Shown: one piece after another, positions 1,573 to 36,014 of the stretch
How the letters are laid out: each line of letters begins with the position of its first letter
Numbering within the stretch: the stretch's first letter is position 1
DNA from: a virus
DNA length: 64,000 nucleotides
Virus record (IMG/VR): IMGVR_UViG_3300044213_000107
Location: 186,001-250,000 of that record
Strand: one strand, 5' to 3'
The notes under the pieces: generated by a model
The model's database searches: none
Seen by the model: the letters and a program-made list of their open reading frames with translations, nothing else
Told to the model about the DNA's origin: nothing
Translations under genes and position numbers: made by a program

Positions 1573-1737
1573 TTAATCAACAATTTCGTCTTTGCTGACT
1601 TTTTCACCTAAGTATTGTTTAATAACTCTGATTAACTTACGCTCAGTATCATAAACAAACTCATTTGCGTCATCTTCGGTATTTACTACAAGAATAAAGC
1701 CATTTGCGGCTCTGCGTATTTCGATAGATTCAAACAT
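1573..1737 (-). CDS. Small hypothetical phage protein, 54 aa
   Basis: This short gene begins with ATG at 1735-1737, preceded on its strand by CAGGAG at good spacing, and encodes MFESIEIRRAANGF... It ends in KDEIVD at a TAA that abuts the end of the epimerase gene. It is strongly charged and has no signal or membrane segment. It reads like the small conserved proteins of T4-like marine phages, but I assign no function. The clear ribosome site and clean fit between neighbours support it as real. Confidence 0.65.
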   Translation of the reverse strand: MFESIEIRRAANGFILVVNTEDDANEFVYDTERKLIRVIKQYLGEKVSKDEIVD

Positions 1738-1781: not shown

Positions 1782-2528
1782 TTATTCTGTGTCTACAGGA
1801 TATTCTTTTAAATCTAATAAATGGTAATCGAATTTAACAATTTGATTTTCGTAATTGTCGTAATTCTTAATAAGGTTGCCCATATATTTTGCGAATCGTG
1901 TATGATTTGCTTCTTCCAGGTGGCCTTTTCTATCATCCATACAAGGCATAGGATCAGTTGCCGAATTTTCATTATTAGTTATGGTTTCAAATGCAAAATC
2001 AAGCAATAAACCCTTTGTAAAATATTTACGAGCAATCGGTCTAGCCATTTCAACATTAGGTAAAAATATAAATTTAATATGTGGATATTGTGCAGGTAGC
2101 TCCATAATATACTTTACCATTAACTCATATTCAAACATTTTTTGATCAAATTCATAAAGATACTTATAGTACAATTTATATGCTAAATTGTATTCATCAT
2201 AATCATAATCCATAGTATCGGCGCGACCTTCCTGGAATGCCCTGTGTACTGCATTATGTTCGGGGTTGCCATGAAAAAATCTCTCTAGCCATGTAAAAGT
2301 AAATATAGCAAAATTATCATCAAATTCATCAAATTTATCTACATCACACTGAAATCCTAATATAGCGGCATATTGATTTGATCCCCCGAGCCCGGAACTA
2401 ATGCATTCTGGCGGACCATTAAATCCGAGTTCTTTTAATAACTTTGACCCCCACACTATTCCTTCATGGTCGTCACCATGTTCCAAATCTACATAACTAT
2501 CACCAAAATAACCTATACGAAATGTCAT
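1782..2528 (-). CDS. SGNH/GDSL-family hydrolase-like protein
   Basis: 248 residues with the block I motif GDS at 9-11 in GYFGDSYVD, a glycine-rich block II (SSGLGGSNQYA, about 44-54) and a C-terminal His region (HLEEANH, about 203-209) where SGNH enzymes place the catalytic His. SGNH hydrolases deacylate lipids, glycans or acyl groups on surface sugars. A role in modifying host surface sugars is possible given the nearby epimerase, but it is inferred. AAAGG lies just upstream of the ATG, at the 3' end of the ncRNA gene that precedes this gene on the same strand. Confidence 0.6.
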   Translation of the reverse strand: MTFRIGYFGDSYVDLEHGDDHEGIVWGSKLLKELGFNGPPECISSGLGGSNQYAAILGFQCDVDKFDEFDDNFAIFTFTWLERFFHGNPEHNAVHRAFQEGRADTMDYDYDEYNLAYKLYYKYLYEFDQKMFEYELMVKYIMELPAQYPHIKFIFLPNVEMARPIARKYFTKGLLLDFAFETITNNENSATDPMPCMDDRKGHLEEANHTRFAKYMGNLIKNYDNYENQIVKFDYHLLDLKEYPVDTE

Positions 2529-2548
2529 TAACGTTTGCCTTTAAAAAA

Positions 2549-2797
2549 ATGTTAGACACACAAAATCTACTTTACAACCGTGGACCACAATGATCAAGTT
2601 AATTACTTTTGCATCCAACCATAACAAGTTATAGCCATGTTCATGGAATCTCATACTCTCTGCGATGTTGATATCTATACTGCCCTCGGAAGCATCCGAT
2701 ATTATGCAAGGGGCTTAAATGTTTTACTGTATCGCTACAGCTATCATAGAGAGCACTACCACTGGTATTAGATGGTTGCCAAACCTGTGTCTAACAT
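2549..2797 (-). ncRNA. Candidate structured ncRNA gene, about 249 nt
   Basis: A perfect 12-base inverted repeat (2549-2560 and 2786-2797) closes a 225-nt interior without a convincing gene. The interior holds further complementary pairs: 2616-2622 with 2772-2778 (7 bp), 2656-2661 with 2748-2753 (6 bp), hairpin 2686-2690/2695-2699, hairpin 2727-2731/2736-2740, and 2682-2685 with 2711-2714. Read on the minus strand, a sigma-70-like promoter ends just before the 5' arm and a run of T follows the 3' arm, so promoter, RNA and terminator form a complete unit. It does not show tmRNA or RNase P signatures. Its function is unknown. Confidence 0.6.
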
Positions 2798-2801
2798 ATA
2801 A

Positions 2802-2829
2802 ATTATATAGCAAATAAAATAAAACACAA
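2802..2829 (-). promoter_or_regulatory. Sigma-70-like promoter of the ncRNA gene
   Basis: On the minus strand TTGTGT (2824-2829) and TATAAT (2802-2807) are separated by 16 bases. The expected start point, about 2795, falls on the first bases of the ncRNA closing stem. Confidence 0.6.
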
Positions 2830-2856: not shown

Positions 2857-3495
2857 ATGGAACTTTCAATTGAAAAAATAAGACACGCGGCTTTCAAACT
2901 TCATCTTGACACCGGATTTGATTTTAACGATATCCAAACTGCATTAGATTCTGAAGATTGGATTCCTTACAGCCAAACTGGGCTAAGTAGAGGGCACGTT
3001 GCTTATGCGACTCGGTTTAAGAAAAATCGTCCCGAAAGTGAAGTACTAAGAAGCATACTCACATTTTTAAGATCAGATGATATAAAGCGTAAGTACATAG
3101 AAACTTTCTATGCAACACATGACCCATACTTTGAAAGTATTTGGTGCATGAAACCCGACGAAATGATGAGTTTTGTTGACATTGGCGCCGACCTAGTACT
3201 AGATCGACCAGGATTCGAAATTGATATTCATGTCGATAATAGAATGTTAGTTAGTACTGGATGGATATACCTAACCCCTAGAGATGATCCAGAATGGAGT
3301 ACTTACTTTTATTTTGATAGGGAAAAGACCAGTGACCCAATACGCATGACAACCAATCCCGGCGACGGATGGTTAAATTTTAATGATTTTAATACCTGGC
3401 ACGATGGATATAACCGAACAGAAGAAAATAGATATGGTATTATTTTATCGCTTTCAATTAAGCATCCACGAGAATATAACTACAGACACAAATAA
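2857..3495 (+). CDS. 2OG-Fe(II) oxygenase-like protein (copy 1)
   Basis: 212 residues with the facial-triad pattern of 2-oxoglutarate Fe(II) dioxygenases: His125-x-Asp127 in IDIHVDN, distal His182 in NTWHDG, and Arg192 ten residues later as the likely 2OG carboxylate ligand. It is a paralog of the gene at 14889, which shares the H-x-D, SGMYYLT/STGWIYLT and WHDG segments. Such enzymes hydroxylate protein side chains, nucleobases or small molecules; the substrate here is unknown. It overlaps the next gene as TAATG, so it likely works with that radical SAM enzyme. Confidence 0.7.
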   Translation: MELSIEKIRHAAFKLHLDTGFDFNDIQTALDSEDWIPYSQTGLSRGHVAYATRFKKNRPESEVLRSILTFLRSDDIKRKYIETFYATHDPYFESIWCMKPDEMMSFVDIGADLVLDRPGFEIDIHVDNRMLVSTGWIYLTPRDDPEWSTYFYFDREKTSDPIRMTTNPGDGWLNFNDFNTWHDGYNRTEENRYGIILSLSIKHPREYNYRHK

Positions 3496-4616
3496 TGTTA
3501 GATATCAATAATTTTTGTTCATTACCTTTTCGGGGTATACAAATAGAATATGACGGTTCACTTAAACCGTGTTGCATGTTCAAACAAGAAAAAGAACCTA
3601 ATTATAAAAATTACACTGTAGACCAATTTGAACAATATTGGTCTGACAATAGTATTAGACAACGATTTATCGATAATAGTATTCCTGAAGGTTGCAAAAT
3701 TTGTTTTGATGATCAAATGATTACCACCGGAGTAAGATCGTTTACTAACAATTCATTAATTAAAAACACGCCAAATATTACAGTATCAGACTCACCGGAA
3801 CATATCGAAATTAAATTCGGAAACTATTGCAATTTAAAATGCATTATGTGTGGGCCATATGCTAGCAGTCAATTGGAAACAGAATATCGAACACATAAAG
3901 ACAAATTTGATGCTATCGAAATATATCAACCTTTGCTTAAACAATACTACTGGTGGGAGGATCCTGATACTTTAAAAAAAGTACAACAAATGGTAAAAAC
4001 TGCAAAGTATATAAGTTTCTCTGGAGGTGAGCCGTTATTAATTAATGGAATCTATGACATTTTAGATCATGCACCGAGGGATTGTGTTATAACAATAAGC
4101 ACAAACTTAACAAGATTAACAAACAAACACATAGAATATTTTCAAAAATTTAAAAATATAAGAATTAGAATAAGTTTAGATGGAATAGGCACTCAAGAAG
4201 AATATTTAAGATACGGCACCGATTGGGACAAATTAAATGCTAACATACAACAATTAATCTCTATAGAAGAAATTGATGTAGGGTTTACTTATTTATTGCA
4301 ACATACATCTGTTTATACATATCCAGAGTTATGGAATTATGTAAAATCTACTGATAAAAGTTTAATTGTATCGACAGTTTATGGAGGGTCGATATCTGAA
4401 GGACTTCTTACTATTAATAGTGCTCCAGAAAAAGATGTCGAATCTTTTAAAAATTGGATTAAATTAAATTCTACGCCACATAATAATATGATAAAGAATT
4501 GGATTGAATCTTACAAATTCAATCCAATCCTACTAGAAAAATTTAAAAAATACGTTACCGTTCTTGACCAGGTGCGTGGCACAAATTATCAAGCCACATT
4601 TAATCCAAATTGGTAA
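3495..4616 (+). CDS. Radical SAM protein, Cys-rich N-terminus (copy 1)
   Basis: 373 residues. The radical SAM cluster motif is Cys112-x3-Cys116-x2-Cys119 in YCNLKCIMC, with GGEP at 177-180 for SAM binding. Extra cysteines before the core (Cys8, Cys26-Cys27 in LKPCCMF, Cys67 and Cys70 in GCKIC) look like a second metal-binding module placed N-terminally, as in several phage twitch-type radical SAM proteins. It is a paralog of the genes at 18221 and 34842. Its start overlaps the stop of the 2OG oxygenase. The substrate is unknown; peptide or protein modification is one possibility. Confidence 0.8.
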   Translation: MLDINNFCSLPFRGIQIEYDGSLKPCCMFKQEKEPNYKNYTVDQFEQYWSDNSIRQRFIDNSIPEGCKICFDDQMITTGVRSFTNNSLIKNTPNITVSDSPEHIEIKFGNYCNLKCIMCGPYASSQLETEYRTHKDKFDAIEIYQPLLKQYYWWEDPDTLKKVQQMVKTAKYISFSGGEPLLINGIYDILDHAPRDCVITISTNLTRLTNKHIEYFQKFKNIRIRISLDGIGTQEEYLRYGTDWDKLNANIQQLISIEEIDVGFTYLLQHTSVYTYPELWNYVKSTDKSLIVSTVYGGSISEGLLTINSAPEKDVESFKNWIKLNSTPHNNMIKNWIESYKFNPILLEKFKKYVTVLDQVRGTNYQATFNPNW

Positions 4617-7373: not shown

Positions 7374-8216
7374 TTAATTTTTATTTAATAATTTTTTAAA
7401 GAAGTTATTATATTCTTCTAATTTAATTTGTGTTTCTTTTTCGCTAGAAACTATTATATTTACTTTTCCAGATTTCTGTAACTCTTTGGTATTATCTATA
7501 TTACTTTGACATTTTTCAATTAATGTATTAATTTTTTCTTGAGGCATATCTTTTCGTGTCAATAAAAATATATTAATAGAAACCTTATTAAGAGGCGAAT
7601 TTTTTATATCTTTAAATTTAATATATGTAATACCTTTGTCAACATAATTTTGAGCAACAGATTCTGTAGCTATAGTAATATCAGCTCTGCCGGCTAGTGT
7701 ATCAATTAACGGGGCGGTACCACCTCCGTTATATAATACTTGAGTTACAGATATATTTTTTAATTTAAAATAAGTAGAGGTAATTAATGACGACTCTTCT
7801 CCTACATCGGCTGATAGTACTGTAGTCTTATCAATTTGTTTTTTAGAAATTAAATCATCAATGGATTTATATAATGGCGAAATTATGAATACTGGGTCAA
7901 CTGATGCTATTAAACTAATAAATCTAAATTTATCAGTAGGCATAAAATTAAAAAGATTTTTATCTGTCATCGGTGATAATAGAGCTGACGAATTTGGTAC
8001 TACCAAAAAGTCTATTTCTCCAGATTCTAGTGCTTTGTAACCTATATATCCTTTGGCTCCTTGTTTGTTTATAACAACAAAATTTTCATCTTTTGTTAAT
8101 AAACGCATTACCTGTTCATGAAGTGGAATTCCCACATGCCCAATTTTAATAATTTCTGCTGCCATTGTACAAGTTGATAATATCAATAGTATCGCAGTTA
8201 AGATTATTTTTTTCAT
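7374..8216 (-). CDS. TctC/Bug-family periplasmic binding protein-like
   Basis: 280 residues. A signal peptide (MKKIILTAILLILS..., cleavage likely after Ala20) is followed by the tripartite tricarboxylate transporter receptor fold. The hallmark YNGGGTAPLIDTLAGRADI near residues 160-178 corresponds to the YKGG...LLAGxVD ligand-site region of Bug proteins. Bug proteins bind carboxylates in the periplasm and are greatly expanded in Betaproteobacteria. In a phage it may alter host uptake or the cell surface; no transporter genes accompany it. AGAGGAT precedes the ATG. It is probably host-derived. Confidence 0.8.
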   Translation of the reverse strand: MKKIILTAILLILSTCTMAAEIIKIGHVGIPLHEQVMRLLTKDENFVVINKQGAKGYIGYKALESGEIDFLVVPNSSALLSPMTDKNLFNFMPTDKFRFISLIASVDPVFIISPLYKSIDDLISKKQIDKTTVLSADVGEESSLITSTYFKLKNISVTQVLYNGGGTAPLIDTLAGRADITIATESVAQNYVDKGITYIKFKDIKNSPLNKVSINIFLLTRKDMPQEKINTLIEKCQSNIDNTKELQKSGKVNIIVSSEKETQIKLEEYNNFFKKLLNKN

Positions 8217-18220: not shown

Positions 18221-19402
18221 TTATACTGGGAATACTTCCCTAAAATTTGTTTTTCTTATACGATCTAACATACCAATATATTCGTTAAATGTATTGATTA
18301 AGTTAGGATTGTGCACAGCATTTTCCAATGAGTTTATTGTAAATTTAATCGCTGATATATAGTTATATCGCAGATAATGCGTTAAAGGAATCTGAGATTT
18401 TAGTTCTTGCAAATCGAGAATAAATTGATTTCTTTGTGCATCTGTTAACACTTCTATGTCTAAATATGGTTTAGACATTAATCTACCAACATTCACAGCA
18501 TATGAGTTATCAACACAATATTGAATTAATGGTATCAACGCCCAGAAACTTGTATACTGTAGTGTATGGCCAATGGTAATAGGATTATTAGGCCATGTAG
18601 GATTAGGACGTGTGGCTAATTTTTTAATATTAGCATCTACGGTTGCCCACTCACTACCATATCTAACATATTCTGTATGTTGCTCGGTACCTTCTAAACT
18701 TACAACTATTGCAACAGATTTAAATTTTGAAATACAATCGTATACTTCATCTGTTAATGTTGTACCGTTTGTGGTAACTGTTAAATTTAATTGCTCCGGA
18801 TGCGGAATGCTTTTTAACATTGCAATAGCATTAGGAGTTATAAGTGGCTCGCCACCTGTTAAAAAAATATGTTCAACATTTTCTAATAGTCGAGGCTCCA
18901 GCTCTTGATATTCATCTGTTTCAAACCAATTTCTTTTTTGTATAAATTGATCATCATGAGTTAAGTGAACAAAATTTTTATATTGTTCTCTATTCATTTT
19001 TACTTCAGTTTCTATACTAGAACTGCAATAAGGATTACACATTATACATTTTAAATTACAGTGATTGCCAAATTCAACATGTAAATGTTTTATGCCATAA
19101 GATTTATCTGGTGAAAAATCTTGTCTAATAAAATTTTCAAATGTGCGATTACCATTTATTCTGTACGACGATGATCCATTGTCTTCTTCGTCCCAACAAC
19201 GACTACAACCTTCATGTCTTTGGCCATTGTCTAGTTCTTGACTAATTTTAATAACTTTTGTTTGTCGCCAACGATCAAATTGATCATATTTATCAACCAA
19301 ATTACCATCTTTTATTTGATAATTACAACAAGGTGTAAGTGTGCCGTCTGTGCGAATATTAACACCAATATGCGAATGTATACAAAATGTTTCTTGATTC
19401 AT
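18221..19402 (-). CDS. Radical SAM protein, Cys-rich N-terminus (copy 2)
   Basis: I start at ATG 19400-19402 (MNQETFCIHSHIG), because TATAAATA lies exactly 5 bases upstream; an ATG seven codons earlier overlaps the promoter. The product has about 393 residues: N-terminal CNYQ-type cysteines (PCC, GCSRCWDEE), the core HCNLKCIMC motif (C-x3-C-x2-C), then LTGGEPLI. It is closely related in layout to the genes at 3495 and 34842. It ends 3 bases from tRNA-Ser. The substrate is unknown. Confidence 0.8.
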   Translation of the reverse strand: MNQETFCIHSHIGVNIRTDGTLTPCCNYQIKDGNLVDKYDQFDRWRQTKVIKISQELDNGQRHEGCSRCWDEEDNGSSSYRINGNRTFENFIRQDFSPDKSYGIKHLHVEFGNHCNLKCIMCNPYCSSSIETEVKMNREQYKNFVHLTHDDQFIQKRNWFETDEYQELEPRLLENVEHIFLTGGEPLITPNAIAMLKSIPHPEQLNLTVTTNGTTLTDEVYDCISKFKSVAIVVSLEGTEQHTEYVRYGSEWATVDANIKKLATRPNPTWPNNPITIGHTLQYTSFWALIPLIQYCVDNSYAVNVGRLMSKPYLDIEVLTDAQRNQFILDLQELKSQIPLTHYLRYNYISAIKFTINSLENAVHNPNLINTFNEYIGMLDRIRKTNFREVFPV

Positions 19403-19407
19403 AGTGA

Positions 19408-19415
19408 TATTTATA
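19408..19415 (-). promoter_or_regulatory. Late-type promoter TATAAATA, leaderless arrangement
   Basis: A perfect octamer followed by TCACT and the ATG of the radical SAM gene. No Shine-Dalgarno is present. Confidence 0.55.
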
Positions 19416-19432
19416 TGCAACATATATTGTAA

Positions 19433-30529: not shown

Positions 30530-31624
30530 TTAAAATCCTGCGAGCATAACAAATGGCATTGGATCTATGAAATCTTCTAGGTCATTACGTACACTTTCGT
30601 CTAATTCGGCATCAAAAGTCTGCAATAATTGTATCATACGAACACACAATAACATACTCATAACTAAATCGTCAGTTTCGCCTATTTTTGCAGCAAAGCT
30701 AGTGCCGTGTGCTACAAAGTTTTTAAGTTCACTAATTAAATTATTACTTGCAATGTGCAGACGTTTGTTTTCAATTAATGCTTTTAACTTAGCACAAACT
30801 GATATCTTGGATTTATTTGAAGTGGTAAATCCTTTGCGATACACCCTTGATACACCCGCACGCTTAGGTTCACTTAAAAAGGTACCACGAATATTTTCTT
30901 CGCCCATTTCCGCAATGGTAACCAATGCTGCTTCCCCTAATGTATTATTTTCTACGCTGTAATAGATGTTATTTTCTGTGCCAATTATATCGTATATGTA
31001 TTGGCAAACTTCTTTCATTATACCTACTTGTTTTTGGATAGGAGTTTTATTGTGTTGCCATTCGGCTACCTGTTTCATTGATGGCAATTCAACCACTTGT
31101 AGTGCTGCGTAATCGCCACCGGTGCCCAGGCTAGGATCCAGGCCGACTGCATAAGTATATCCTTTTTCAGGTTTTTTATACCAGCGAACTTGCCCTTGTT
31201 TTTCAATTGGATCTATACCGGCCAGTTCTACTAGATGCAAAGGGTTAATAAGCGTCTCATCAAAAATAATGAATTCGCAATTTGATGACAGCACTCCGTT
31301 TGTGTAATATCTATGACCACCTTCAACCTCTACTAAGTCATATACTAACTGTGTTTTGCCCGTGTCCGTGACCCCAATGATCTTAATTTCTCCGTTCTTG
31401 GATAATACTATGTCCCCAACAGTAAGTTCGTTCAACGGAACTCTAGTAGTATCATCAATAAACAACTTATGGTTGTTGGTGCACTCTAACCAATAGTCCT
31501 GCTCAAACTCAACTCTGCATATTGGGCGAGTTCCCAGGCAACGTATTCCTACAAATGATTTATATCCATCAGGAGTCAAAACTTTATACCCGTGTATATT
31601 TTCTTTAAAAGTTACTTCTGCCAT
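30530..31624 (-). CDS. 17: Terminase large subunit, C-terminal half, fused behind the intein C-part (IntC-TerL-C)
   Basis: 364 residues in two parts. Residues 1-115 are the C-part of a split intein: block B TNNH at 49-52, block F VYDLVEV...HRYYTNG, block G GVLSSN ending at Asn115, then Cys116 as the +1 nucleophile. Residues 116-364 are the terminase nuclease half: CEFIIFDETLINP, the acidic YAVGLDPSLG (Asp163), VENN, and ETDDLVMSML with the distal Asp. After splicing it would rejoin the ATPase half made from 32649. The penultimate residue is Ser, not the usual His. Confidence 0.88.
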   Translation of the reverse strand: MAEVTFKENIHGYKVLTPDGYKSFVGIRCLGTRPICRVEFEQDYWLECTNNHKLFIDDTTRVPLNELTVGDIVLSKNGEIKIIGVTDTGKTQLVYDLVEVEGGHRYYTNGVLSSNCEFIIFDETLINPLHLVELAGIDPIEKQGQVRWYKKPEKGYTYAVGLDPSLGTGGDYAALQVVELPSMKQVAEWQHNKTPIQKQVGIMKEVCQYIYDIIGTENNIYYSVENNTLGEAALVTIAEMGEENIRGTFLSEPKRAGVSRVYRKGFTTSNKSKISVCAKLKALIENKRLHIASNNLISELKNFVAHGTSFAAKIGETDDLVMSMLLCVRMIQLLQTFDAELDESVRNDLEDFIDPMPFVMLAGF

Positions 31625-32616
31625 GTTAGTATCTCGTAGTTATTTTTATCAGTAAACAGCCAAACCTCGTACTCAAATCCCTGTTGTAAAACGGAATCTT
31701 TTTTACGTACATTATTAGTTAATCGTGATTTGTATTTTTTATCTCCGTTACCGTCCCACCACCACCGACTTTTTACTTCAATTATTTTATTTTCTTTTGT
31801 AATCAATATATCTGGATAATATAAAGCTGTGTGTTGATTGACGTTTATATATTCAAACTTTGGTAGATCATAGACCGATTTCCTATCATCAAATTGTAGG
31901 TCGGATTCCTCATAAATTTCTAATAACTTAGTTATTGTTATATCTTCATACCCCCTAACACCAATTACACGCCCAGATGGAAGGACAAATTCTCTTCCTA
32001 AACTATTTGATTTTGCTGAATTTGTTCTTGCTTCAGGTTTCATTAATGCGTTCTCAACACCAAATTTTGTCAAACATGTTGCACGCCGTTTGTCGGCAAT
32101 TTCACTGATTTTTTCAGCTGACATTGCTTGCCAAGATGCACTTGTTTGTTTGCTATTAGCATAATATTCATCACCATAACGTTCAAATTTGGTTTTCTTA
32201 GATTTATGTTTGTATGTTGCAGATTGCGTTACCCATTCTACATCATATTTTTTTCTAAAAGTTTCTTTGGATTTTATAACTTGTGATTGTATTTGTTCTT
32301 GTGTTCTTGCACTGGCCGCTAATCTTTTATTATTAGAATCGGTATTCCTTTGTTCTATAGTCCAAGACCGTTTAGTATTGGATATGCTTAGTCCCACACA
32401 TTTAGGGTCACCGCAACTATTAGCATAGGTTTCTGTTTTTTGATAAAATGATAGGGCATTCCCGCATCTACATTTTGGGGATGTTTTGGTAATATATGTT
32501 TCAATATACTGTTGGTACGTTAGATTGTTATTTCTTAAATGCCTAGTAAATTGACCATTGGTTTTACAATAAGTTTTATGATCTATTACTGATGTTATAT
32601 ATTTTGTTTTAGACAT
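31612..32616 (-). CDS. Homing endonuclease inside the fractured terL, Vsr-like EDxHD/PD-(D/E)xK family
   Basis: I start at ATG 32614-32616 (MSKTKYITSVID..., 334 residues); upstream in-frame TTG or GTG starts are possible. A Cys-rich segment (CRCGNALSF...CGDPKCVG) precedes repeated helices and a C-terminal nuclease: GYEDITITKL, then INVNQHTALYYPDI and KIIEVKSRWW, matching the E-D, H and PD...ExK residues of the Vsr-like homing family found with split inteins. It fills the gap between terminase halves, overlaps the downstream half by 13 bases and has GATAAATA at 32650. Confidence 0.82.
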   Translation of the reverse strand: MSKTKYITSVIDHKTYCKTNGQFTRHLRNNNLTYQQYIETYITKTSPKCRCGNALSFYQKTETYANSCGDPKCVGLSISNTKRSWTIEQRNTDSNNKRLAASARTQEQIQSQVIKSKETFRKKYDVEWVTQSATYKHKSKKTKFERYGDEYYANSKQTSASWQAMSAEKISEIADKRRATCLTKFGVENALMKPEARTNSAKSNSLGREFVLPSGRVIGVRGYEDITITKLLEIYEESDLQFDDRKSVYDLPKFEYINVNQHTALYYPDILITKENKIIEVKSRWWWDGNGDKKYKSRLTNNVRKKDSVLQQGFEYEVWLFTDKNNYEILTWQK

Positions 32617-32648
32617 ACATTTCTCTGCTAAATCGTTCACGAGCAAGA

Positions 32649-34841: not shown

Positions 34842-36014
34842 TCAAGTATTTATCAGTAGTTGGTAGAACTCAGGGTGTGTGTCTGCATATGAAGTGTCTG
34901 TTGCGGCATCATATTTTTTAACATAAGATAAAAAATCAGCAGAACTAAAATTTTCATCTACAATAATGTAATCTGCCAAAAAATCCAGTTCTTTAATACC
35001 GGCAGTTTTATCTAATATGGCAGTTCTAAGACTAGAACTCACTTCTTGTGCCGAGCACTTTCCGAGTCCGGTGTTAAAAGGTGTAAAGTTTTTATAGACA
35101 GCAGGGAATTCTGTAGATAAAAAATTACACAATTCTGAAATGTAAAATATATTATACAGGCTGTAGGTTATGTTAAAACATAATTCTACTCTAGGTCCAC
35201 AATTGGCTTGGAACCATTTAATATTTTCTACTACTTGATCCCATTTTGCGCCACGGCGTTGATATTCAAATCTTTTGCCGATGTCATCTATACTAAAAAA
35301 TAATCTAACTTTTTCAACAGAATTTAATATTTCTAAAAATTCCGGAGTCGGCAAGGTTGTGGCATTTGTAAATATCCAAATAGTTAGATCATCGTAGCTG
35401 CGATATTTTCCCATGTTTCGAAAAAATTCATAGTATGCCGGTTCCATAAATATTTCGCCGCCTTGCAGTTGTACCAATTTAAGACTTTTAAATAATGCAG
35501 GATCATCAATTACAGGACGGTCATTCTTTTTATATTTCATTCCAGGCCAAATAAATCCCCAGTGTTTTTCGTACAAAGGAATCCAACTACTGCTGTTAAA
35601 AGGACCACATATAGCACAACTTAGATTACAAAGGTTTCCTAGATTTAAATCAATCCTTGTTAAAACTTCTACTTCACTAGTGCCGTGCTCTCTAATAGCA
35701 TGATATCTTCCACTGGCGTGAGGATTTATTTGATCTTGCTGATAACAATGGCCGCAACCAGGATGCTTTTCGTTATTTTTATTTTTTTCTCGTAGCTCAA
35801 CAATAAATGGTGCAGAATTATAATCATTGTAAATTTCATTGCTGCGAGAAATAAACATATCCTCACCTTTAGGCTTATAATCCCTATTAAAATAACAACA
35901 GGGTTTATAATCAAAGCGATCGTTCAGTTGATTTATGTATGCTCTATTCCATATCTCAGGGCAATAGACATCAGGATCTACATCGGTGTGATGTATCTTT
36001 ATTGGATATTCCAT
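34842..36014 (-). CDS. Radical SAM protein, Cys-rich N-terminus (copy 3)
   Basis: 390 residues. N-terminal cysteines (YKPCCYF, HPGCGHCYQ), the core LCNLSCAIC with Cys129-x3-Cys133-x2-Cys136, then VQLQGGEIFMEP as the SAM-binding GGE. It is a paralog of the genes at 3495 and 18221. It sits among structural genes between head and terminase, an unusual place for an enzyme. GTTAAATA lies at 36038. The substrate is unknown; virion protein modification is one idea from position. Confidence 0.78.
   Translation of the reverse strand: MEYPIKIHHTDVDPDVYCPEIWNRAYINQLNDRFDYKPCCYFNRDYKPKGEDMFISRSNEIYNDYNSAPFIVELREKNKNNEKHPGCGHCYQQDQINPHASGRYHAIREHGTSEVEVLTRIDLNLGNLCNLSCAICGPFNSSSWIPLYEKHWGFIWPGMKYKKNDRPVIDDPALFKSLKLVQLQGGEIFMEPAYYEFFRNMGKYRSYDDLTIWIFTNATTLPTPEFLEILNSVEKVRLFFSIDDIGKRFEYQRRGAKWDQVVENIKWFQANCGPRVELCFNITYSLYNIFYISELCNFLSTEFPAVYKNFTPFNTGLGKCSAQEVSSSLRTAILDKTAGIKELDFLADYIIVDENFSSADFLSYVKKYDAATDTSYADTHPEFYQLLINT
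34847..34854 (-). promoter_or_regulatory. Late-type promoter GATAAATA, near-leaderless
   Basis: Seven bases before the ATG at 34839, inside the end of the radical SAM gene. Confidence 0.4.

Follow-up and report, generated by a model that had tools for sequence, protein, structure and literature searches.

The window analysed here, a 64,000-nt stretch of DNA corresponding to bases 186001-250000 of a 260,723-base IMG/VR virus record, encodes a T4-type tail sheath, a sheath stabiliser, UvsX and terminase, and carries 25 tRNAs (called by ARAGORN) between 9743 and 18218, all of them on the minus strand. The best cultured matches to the sheath, from jumbo phages such as PA5oct, are only ~40% identical, and we therefore consider the lineage to be uncultivated. 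On the same strand as the tRNAs lies a putative non-coding RNA (ncRNA) gene, whose features, listed from its promoter to its 3' end, are as follows:

2543-2797, minus strand: ncRNA gene; the predicted RNA runs from ~2795 (+1) to 2549-2543 (covariance-model matches and 32-copy alignment)
2824-2829, minus strand: -35-like hexamer TTGTGT, weak, 3/6 of consensus (sequence reading)
2802-2807, minus strand: -10 hexamer TATAAT, perfect consensus (sequence reading)
2786-2797, minus strand: closing stem P1, 5' arm (exact repeat, alignment and fold)
2774-2785, minus strand: hairpin P2, GGU-UUGGCA-ACC (alignment, mutual information and tree)
2769-2773, minus strand: P3 5' strand, AUCUA, partner strand 2569-2565; paired in 100% of cases across 32 copies
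2759-2766, minus strand: P4 5' strand, ACC-A-GUGG, with one bulged base; 99.6% paired
2743-2746, minus strand: P7 5' strand (alignment and window fold)
2711-2714, minus strand: P8 5' strand, GCCC, pairing with GGGC at 2685-2682
2686-2699, minus strand: hairpin P5, UCGGA-UGCU-UCCGA, the most conserved block; 100% paired
2682-2685, minus strand: P8 3' strand, GGGC (alignment and window fold)
2663-2666, minus strand: P7 3' strand (alignment and window fold)
2643-2646, minus strand: P6 5' strand, CCAU, pairing with 2588-2585; 97% paired, all pairs covarying
2585-2588, minus strand: P6 3' strand, GUGG (alignment and window fold)
2577-2583, minus strand: P4 3' strand, CCACGGU (alignment and window fold)
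2565-2569, minus strand: P3 3' strand, UAGAU (alignment and window fold)
2549-2560, minus strand: closing stem P1, 3' arm (exact repeat and alignment)
2543-2549, minus strand: terminator-like T-run directly 3' of the P1 3' arm (sequence reading)

A preliminary description of this DNA had proposed an undescribed phage ncRNA at this locus, with a sigma-70-like promoter, perfectly paired ends and a T-run behind the 3' arm, and each of these elements is indeed present. The promoter reads TTGTGT-16-TATAAT on the minus strand (2829-2824 and 2807-2802, with a spacer of 16 bases); its -35 element is so weak that a consensus scan did not list it. The ends form an exact 12-base inverted repeat, ATGTTAGACACA (2549-2560) and TGTGTCTAACAT (2786-2797), the sole perfect repeat of that length within 2450-2900, and the T-run follows at 2549-2543. 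The predicted start, at ~2795, falls inside the 5' arm as had been suggested, though without transcript data; in the window copy, both the promoter and the T-run remain consensus matches only. Just two open reading frames of at least 40 aa overlap the RNA (49 aa and 44 aa), in agreement with the absence of a credible protein frame, and neither ARAGORN nor Rfam gives a match on it, as expected of a segment said to lack the marks of tmRNA, RNase P RNA or tRNA.

Folded on its own, the minus strand reaches a minimum free energy of -70.6 kcal/mol (z = -2.55 against shuffles; plus strand z = -1.14). This value is only mildly better than that of shuffles and weak when taken alone, and relatives were therefore needed for a decision. 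Within the phage records related to this one, blastn gave a single significant match, in a 374-kb record (G025), where the closing stem differs in sequence from that of the window, its pairing still intact. A conserved 54-aa gene just downstream of the RNA in G025, found in the window at 1573-1737, served as bait and fetched 80 loci; further copies came from a two-sequence profile, and more from DNA patterns of the conserved hairpins, independently of the bait. Covariance models R1 and R3 match the window copy at record positions 188543-188803 (E 6.8e-39 and 3.3e-35), and full-length matches occur in 24 of 50 relative records and in 6 of 50 in a second set, with more loci recovered by pattern. 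This puts a full-length relative in at least 30 contigs from uncultivated jumbo myophages, E-values reaching down to 1e-69; divergent copies outside the model-building set are also matched (E ~1e-26 to 1e-33). There is one full-length copy per record, and the RNA measures ~255-297 nt across the family.

The distribution has limits. None of the nine cultured phages searched (Phosso, PA5oct, Atu_ph07, SCTP-2, Munch, XbC2, Baka, Vibrio phage 2.275.O and GAP32) carries the RNA, and a blastn search with the RNA returned nothing usable from cultured phages or plasmids; a 32-nt match in mycobacteriophage Baka lies inside protein genes and is unmatched by any model. By model search the RNA is also absent from four large, bait-bearing records (G064, G069, G075 and G078), which makes the family seem limited to part of this phage group; records without the RNA may, however, be genome fragments. 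Protein baits from the two flanking large open reading frames fetched no relatives. As for bacteria, a loose DNA pattern matched 116 stretches, and we attribute these to chance since none of the 79 scored with R1 was positive. With an exact 16-base pattern for the hairpin, G025 and its twin were the only loci recovered; the remaining matches lacked the other motifs. One further locus (L420; G000:C1:12819-12894, minus strand), with UCGGCUAUUGCCGA and later AUUUUAAAA, gave a partial match to the P8/P5 part (E 0.008) that is probably due to chance.

The consensus architecture comprises a long P1, the P2 hairpin, a core of stacked P3 and P4 that contains a single bulge, and two further arms (P7-P8-P5; P6-P11-P10-P9). 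RNAalifold returned P1-P6 unaided, and P7, P8, P8b, P9, P10 and P11 were filled in by inspection of the alignment and then tested. In the model-fitted alignment of 32 copies, 69 pairs were kept with covariation: 94.2% of their cells are paired, double-sided changes are seen in 59 of the 69 pairs, and covariation scores 0.571, compared with 0.200 ± 0.009 for shuffled alignments and 0.06-0.09 for slid partners. Because an alignment of this kind leans towards the structure, we counted again in a MAFFT alignment not fitted to it (28 copies), with 87.9% paired, 56 pairs and a score of 0.438 versus 0.194. On a tree built from the unpaired columns we count ~275 double changes, against 12-25 for slid partners, and in an unguided mutual-information ranking of the MAFFT alignment the top eight column pairs all fall within the structure. 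P1 shows changes on both sides among relatives in 17 of its 19 pairs, and a single P4 pair appears as C-G, U-A, A-U, G-C and U-G among the copies.

Applied to the window copy, the covariation-supported fold has an energy of -66.0 kcal/mol, versus -72.1 for the unconstrained fold; the two share P1, P5, P7 and P8 and differ in P2-P4 and P6, the unconstrained fold placing the 5' region in another helix. It is in P2-P4 and P6 that single-sequence pairing is least reliable. The earlier reading of at least five more complementary pairs inside the closing stem was accordingly right only in part, covariation giving a different core.

Beyond the helices, conservation reaches 85% or more at many unpaired positions, amongst them invariant purines adjoining the bulged core helix, and there is a conserved single-stranded stretch, AUUUUAAA. 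In most relatives AGUA precedes P7 and GAA follows it, which by established consensus we take to resemble a bulged-G (loop E) motif; in the window copy an extended helix takes its place. The P2 loop probably contacts the P5 loop and the P4/P3 joint: pair 26-143, between the P2 and P5 loops, is G-C or A-U in 28 of 28 copies with two or three changes on the tree, and contact R28-Y316 rests on about one change. With so few changes, these tertiary contacts are probable and unproven.

Does this RNA belong to a class already described? At the Rfam gathering threshold only tRNAs are found, in the window and in seven relatives, and relaxing the search to E-values of 5-10 (window copy, G025 copy and seven relatives) yields nothing above chance level on the RNA, so this is not a catalogued family. 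RNase P RNA can be set aside, with no model match in the copies or the genomes and no RnpA in ten of these phage records, as can tmRNA (none found in the window by ARAGORN or Rfam), retron msr-msd (no RVT_1 reverse transcriptase in the same number of records), GOLLD and ROOL (no covariance-model match in the window or seven relatives) and T4 rnaC/rnaD, for which model R3 gives noise only (best 4.5 bits, filters off). As far as tested, then, the RNA is none of these. Absent among the 4227 families of Rfam 15, it is, judged by sequence comparison, a new RNA family. We found no open-access paper describing it; subscription papers and supplements were outside our scope. That it is an undescribed phage ncRNA is supported by this absence together with the strong covariation in homologues, and we are very nearly certain, on these comparisons, that the window holds a genuine ncRNA gene, belonging to a structured RNA family not previously described.

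The genomic position of the copies is the main clue to what such an RNA might do. A tRNA is found no more than 60 nt away from 17 of the 33 copies, versus an expectation of 1.6, and each of the 282 tRNAs in the neighbourhoods retrieved shares the strand of the RNA; since the 33 loci include a few near-identical ones, these counts are not all independent. The copies form two overlapping groups: tRNA-adjacent copies, 4-9 nt behind one tRNA or 5-23 nt before another, and copies with a sigma-70 promoter of their own, whose -10 element ends 7-14 nt upstream of P1. TTGACA-17-TATAAT, a perfect 12/12 consensus, stands upstream of three copies (L412, L229 and L230), and 11/12 is reached in seven others, scores hardly ever attained when the same stretch is shuffled. 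Many relatives have TATAAT or TATACT immediately 5' of the closing stem, and several have TTGACA where the window copy has TTGTGT. In the window, ~7 kb separates the RNA from its nearest tRNA, though the strand is that of the tRNAs. The preliminary description of a self-contained gene thus holds here, given its own promoter, closing stem and T-run, but does not extend to the many relatives that sit in tRNA operons.

Taken together, we lean towards a stable, trans-acting RNA family made along with the phage tRNAs, a reading we favour with some reserve since neither transcript nor function has been shown. Its transcription would be driven by a sigma-70 promoter of its own or proceed as part of the phage tRNA operon, and the RNA could be released at P1, either by tRNA-type processing or by its own termination; in the course of infection it may then work in trans, as a stable RNA or as an RNP, most likely while the phage supplies its own tRNAs, in translation or in tRNA supply. 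These parts are not equally secure. Action in trans we hold to be quite likely, as an inference without transcript data, and a role linked to tRNAs or translation is a tentative guess from gene neighbourhood alone. Bolder still, and doubtful for now, would be a jumbo-phage-specific RNA class working from the phage tRNA operon as a catalytic or scaffold machine on tRNAs or ribosomes.

Perhaps the RNA is instead regulatory, binding a host or phage protein or mRNA in the manner of 6S RNA, a sponge or an Hfq-type sRNA. Its own promoter, its T-run and the conserved single-stranded stretch would suit such a role; conservation, however, spans a rigid, many-armed fold, unlike that of a seed-type sRNA, and Rfam gives no 6S match, which leaves this an unlikely if serious competitor. 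The idea of a catalytic RNA, such as one cleaving phage tRNA precursors and so replacing or helping host RNase P, has the compact fold on its side, as well as the invariant unpaired purines beside the bulged core helix and the close spacing to tRNAs in many copies. Yet there is no RNase P RNA match and no RnpA, no known ribozyme core was recognised, and the processing of phage tRNAs normally falls to host enzymes; we regard this alternative as improbable.

Could the RNA simply be a cis-acting leader or riboswitch of the downstream 54-aa gene? It ends 21 nt (G025) and 85 nt (G059) before that gene (53-54 aa), and a local cis role there is not excluded. In other neighbourhoods, however, the gene lies 0.8-6.5 kb away, with genes or tRNAs in between. 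It is the only constant protein-coding neighbour, at distances of 21-6456 nt and with other genes intervening; there is no constant position of the kind a riboswitch or leader RNA would have, and no protein gene at a fixed distance after the RNA, which disfavours a cis element. Moreover, the association is inflated, the gene having served as bait; amongst loci found without the bait, it is present in L194 and L267. A cis-acting leader is thus very improbable as a general explanation. Lastly, a chance inverted repeat or folded DNA element without RNA function, for which only the unremarkable single-sequence z of -2.55 could speak, is refuted by the compensatory changes over 32 copies, along with the constant orientation to tRNAs, and is to all intents ruled out.

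Regarding a stable RNA made with phage tRNAs, the nearest in habit are GOLLD and ROOL, structured RNAs of phages and prophages, often near tRNA islands and of unknown function (PMC12286853). Like them, this RNA is phage-encoded, structured and near tRNA islands, so that its habit of lying by tRNA genes is not unique; their solved examples, on the other hand, measure 659 nt (ROOL), GOLLD often exceeds 800 nt, and both form homo-oligomeric cages, whereas the present RNA, at 255-297 nt, has a different architecture. The species 1 and 2 stable RNAs of T4, rnaC and rnaD, whose role is unknown, lie in the T4 tRNA region (PMC3014915, PMC9697503), a comparable place within a tRNA cluster, and together make up 264 nt; rnaC differs in having a T-arm-like hairpin at its 3' end. 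With bacterial RNase P RNA this family shares a closing stem that joins the 5' and 3' ends and a bulged long-range helix, but not the conserved blocks. The manA and wcaG motifs are structured RNAs of T4-like cyanophages that appear to regulate adjacent genes (PMC2864571); like the RNA described here they are structured and come from T4-like phages, but no match to them is seen here.

To the few large phage RNAs of unknown role, i.e. GOLLD, ROOL and T4 rnaC/rnaD, our results add an RNA class with deep covariation, and they offer a testable case for the question why conserved RNAs other than tRNAs occur in phage tRNA arrays. Models R1-R3 and the list of pairs define the family well enough for searching cultured jumbo phages.

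Several side observations were made along the way. In T4, rnaD and rnaC (L421 2409-2672, minus strand; 264 nt) close into a single folded unit (z -4.07), in which rnaD pairs through its 5' end with the 3' end of rnaC and a hairpin resembling a T-arm lies near the 3' end; no Rfam family scores above threshold on the pair. The 54-aa protein (MFESIEIRRAANGF...; window 1573-1737, minus strand) has relatives in 197 IMG/VR stretches, with no cultured-phage relatives and no Pfam family, and its gene is usually on the same strand as, and downstream of, the ncRNA. Between the two, the window has a 248-aa open reading frame (1782-2528, minus strand) without a Pfam, PHROG or IMG/VR relative, where G025 has 21 bases. 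Elsewhere in the window, the terminase large subunit frame (30530-32646, minus strand) covers only the C-terminal part of phrog_36964, and the frame upstream of it has a weak homing endonuclease match (phrog_12131); an intron, an intein or a homing endonuclease insertion in the terminase gene is possible. At least three radical SAM proteins matching PHROG 14086 are encoded in the window (3495-4616, plus strand; 18221-19423 and 34842-36014, minus strand). Finally, a periplasmic solute-binding protein, an unusual cargo, is encoded near the ncRNA in the window (7374-8216, minus strand) and at L241, L243-L249 and L256, TctC-like in the window and, by look, TRAP DctP-like in the relatives.
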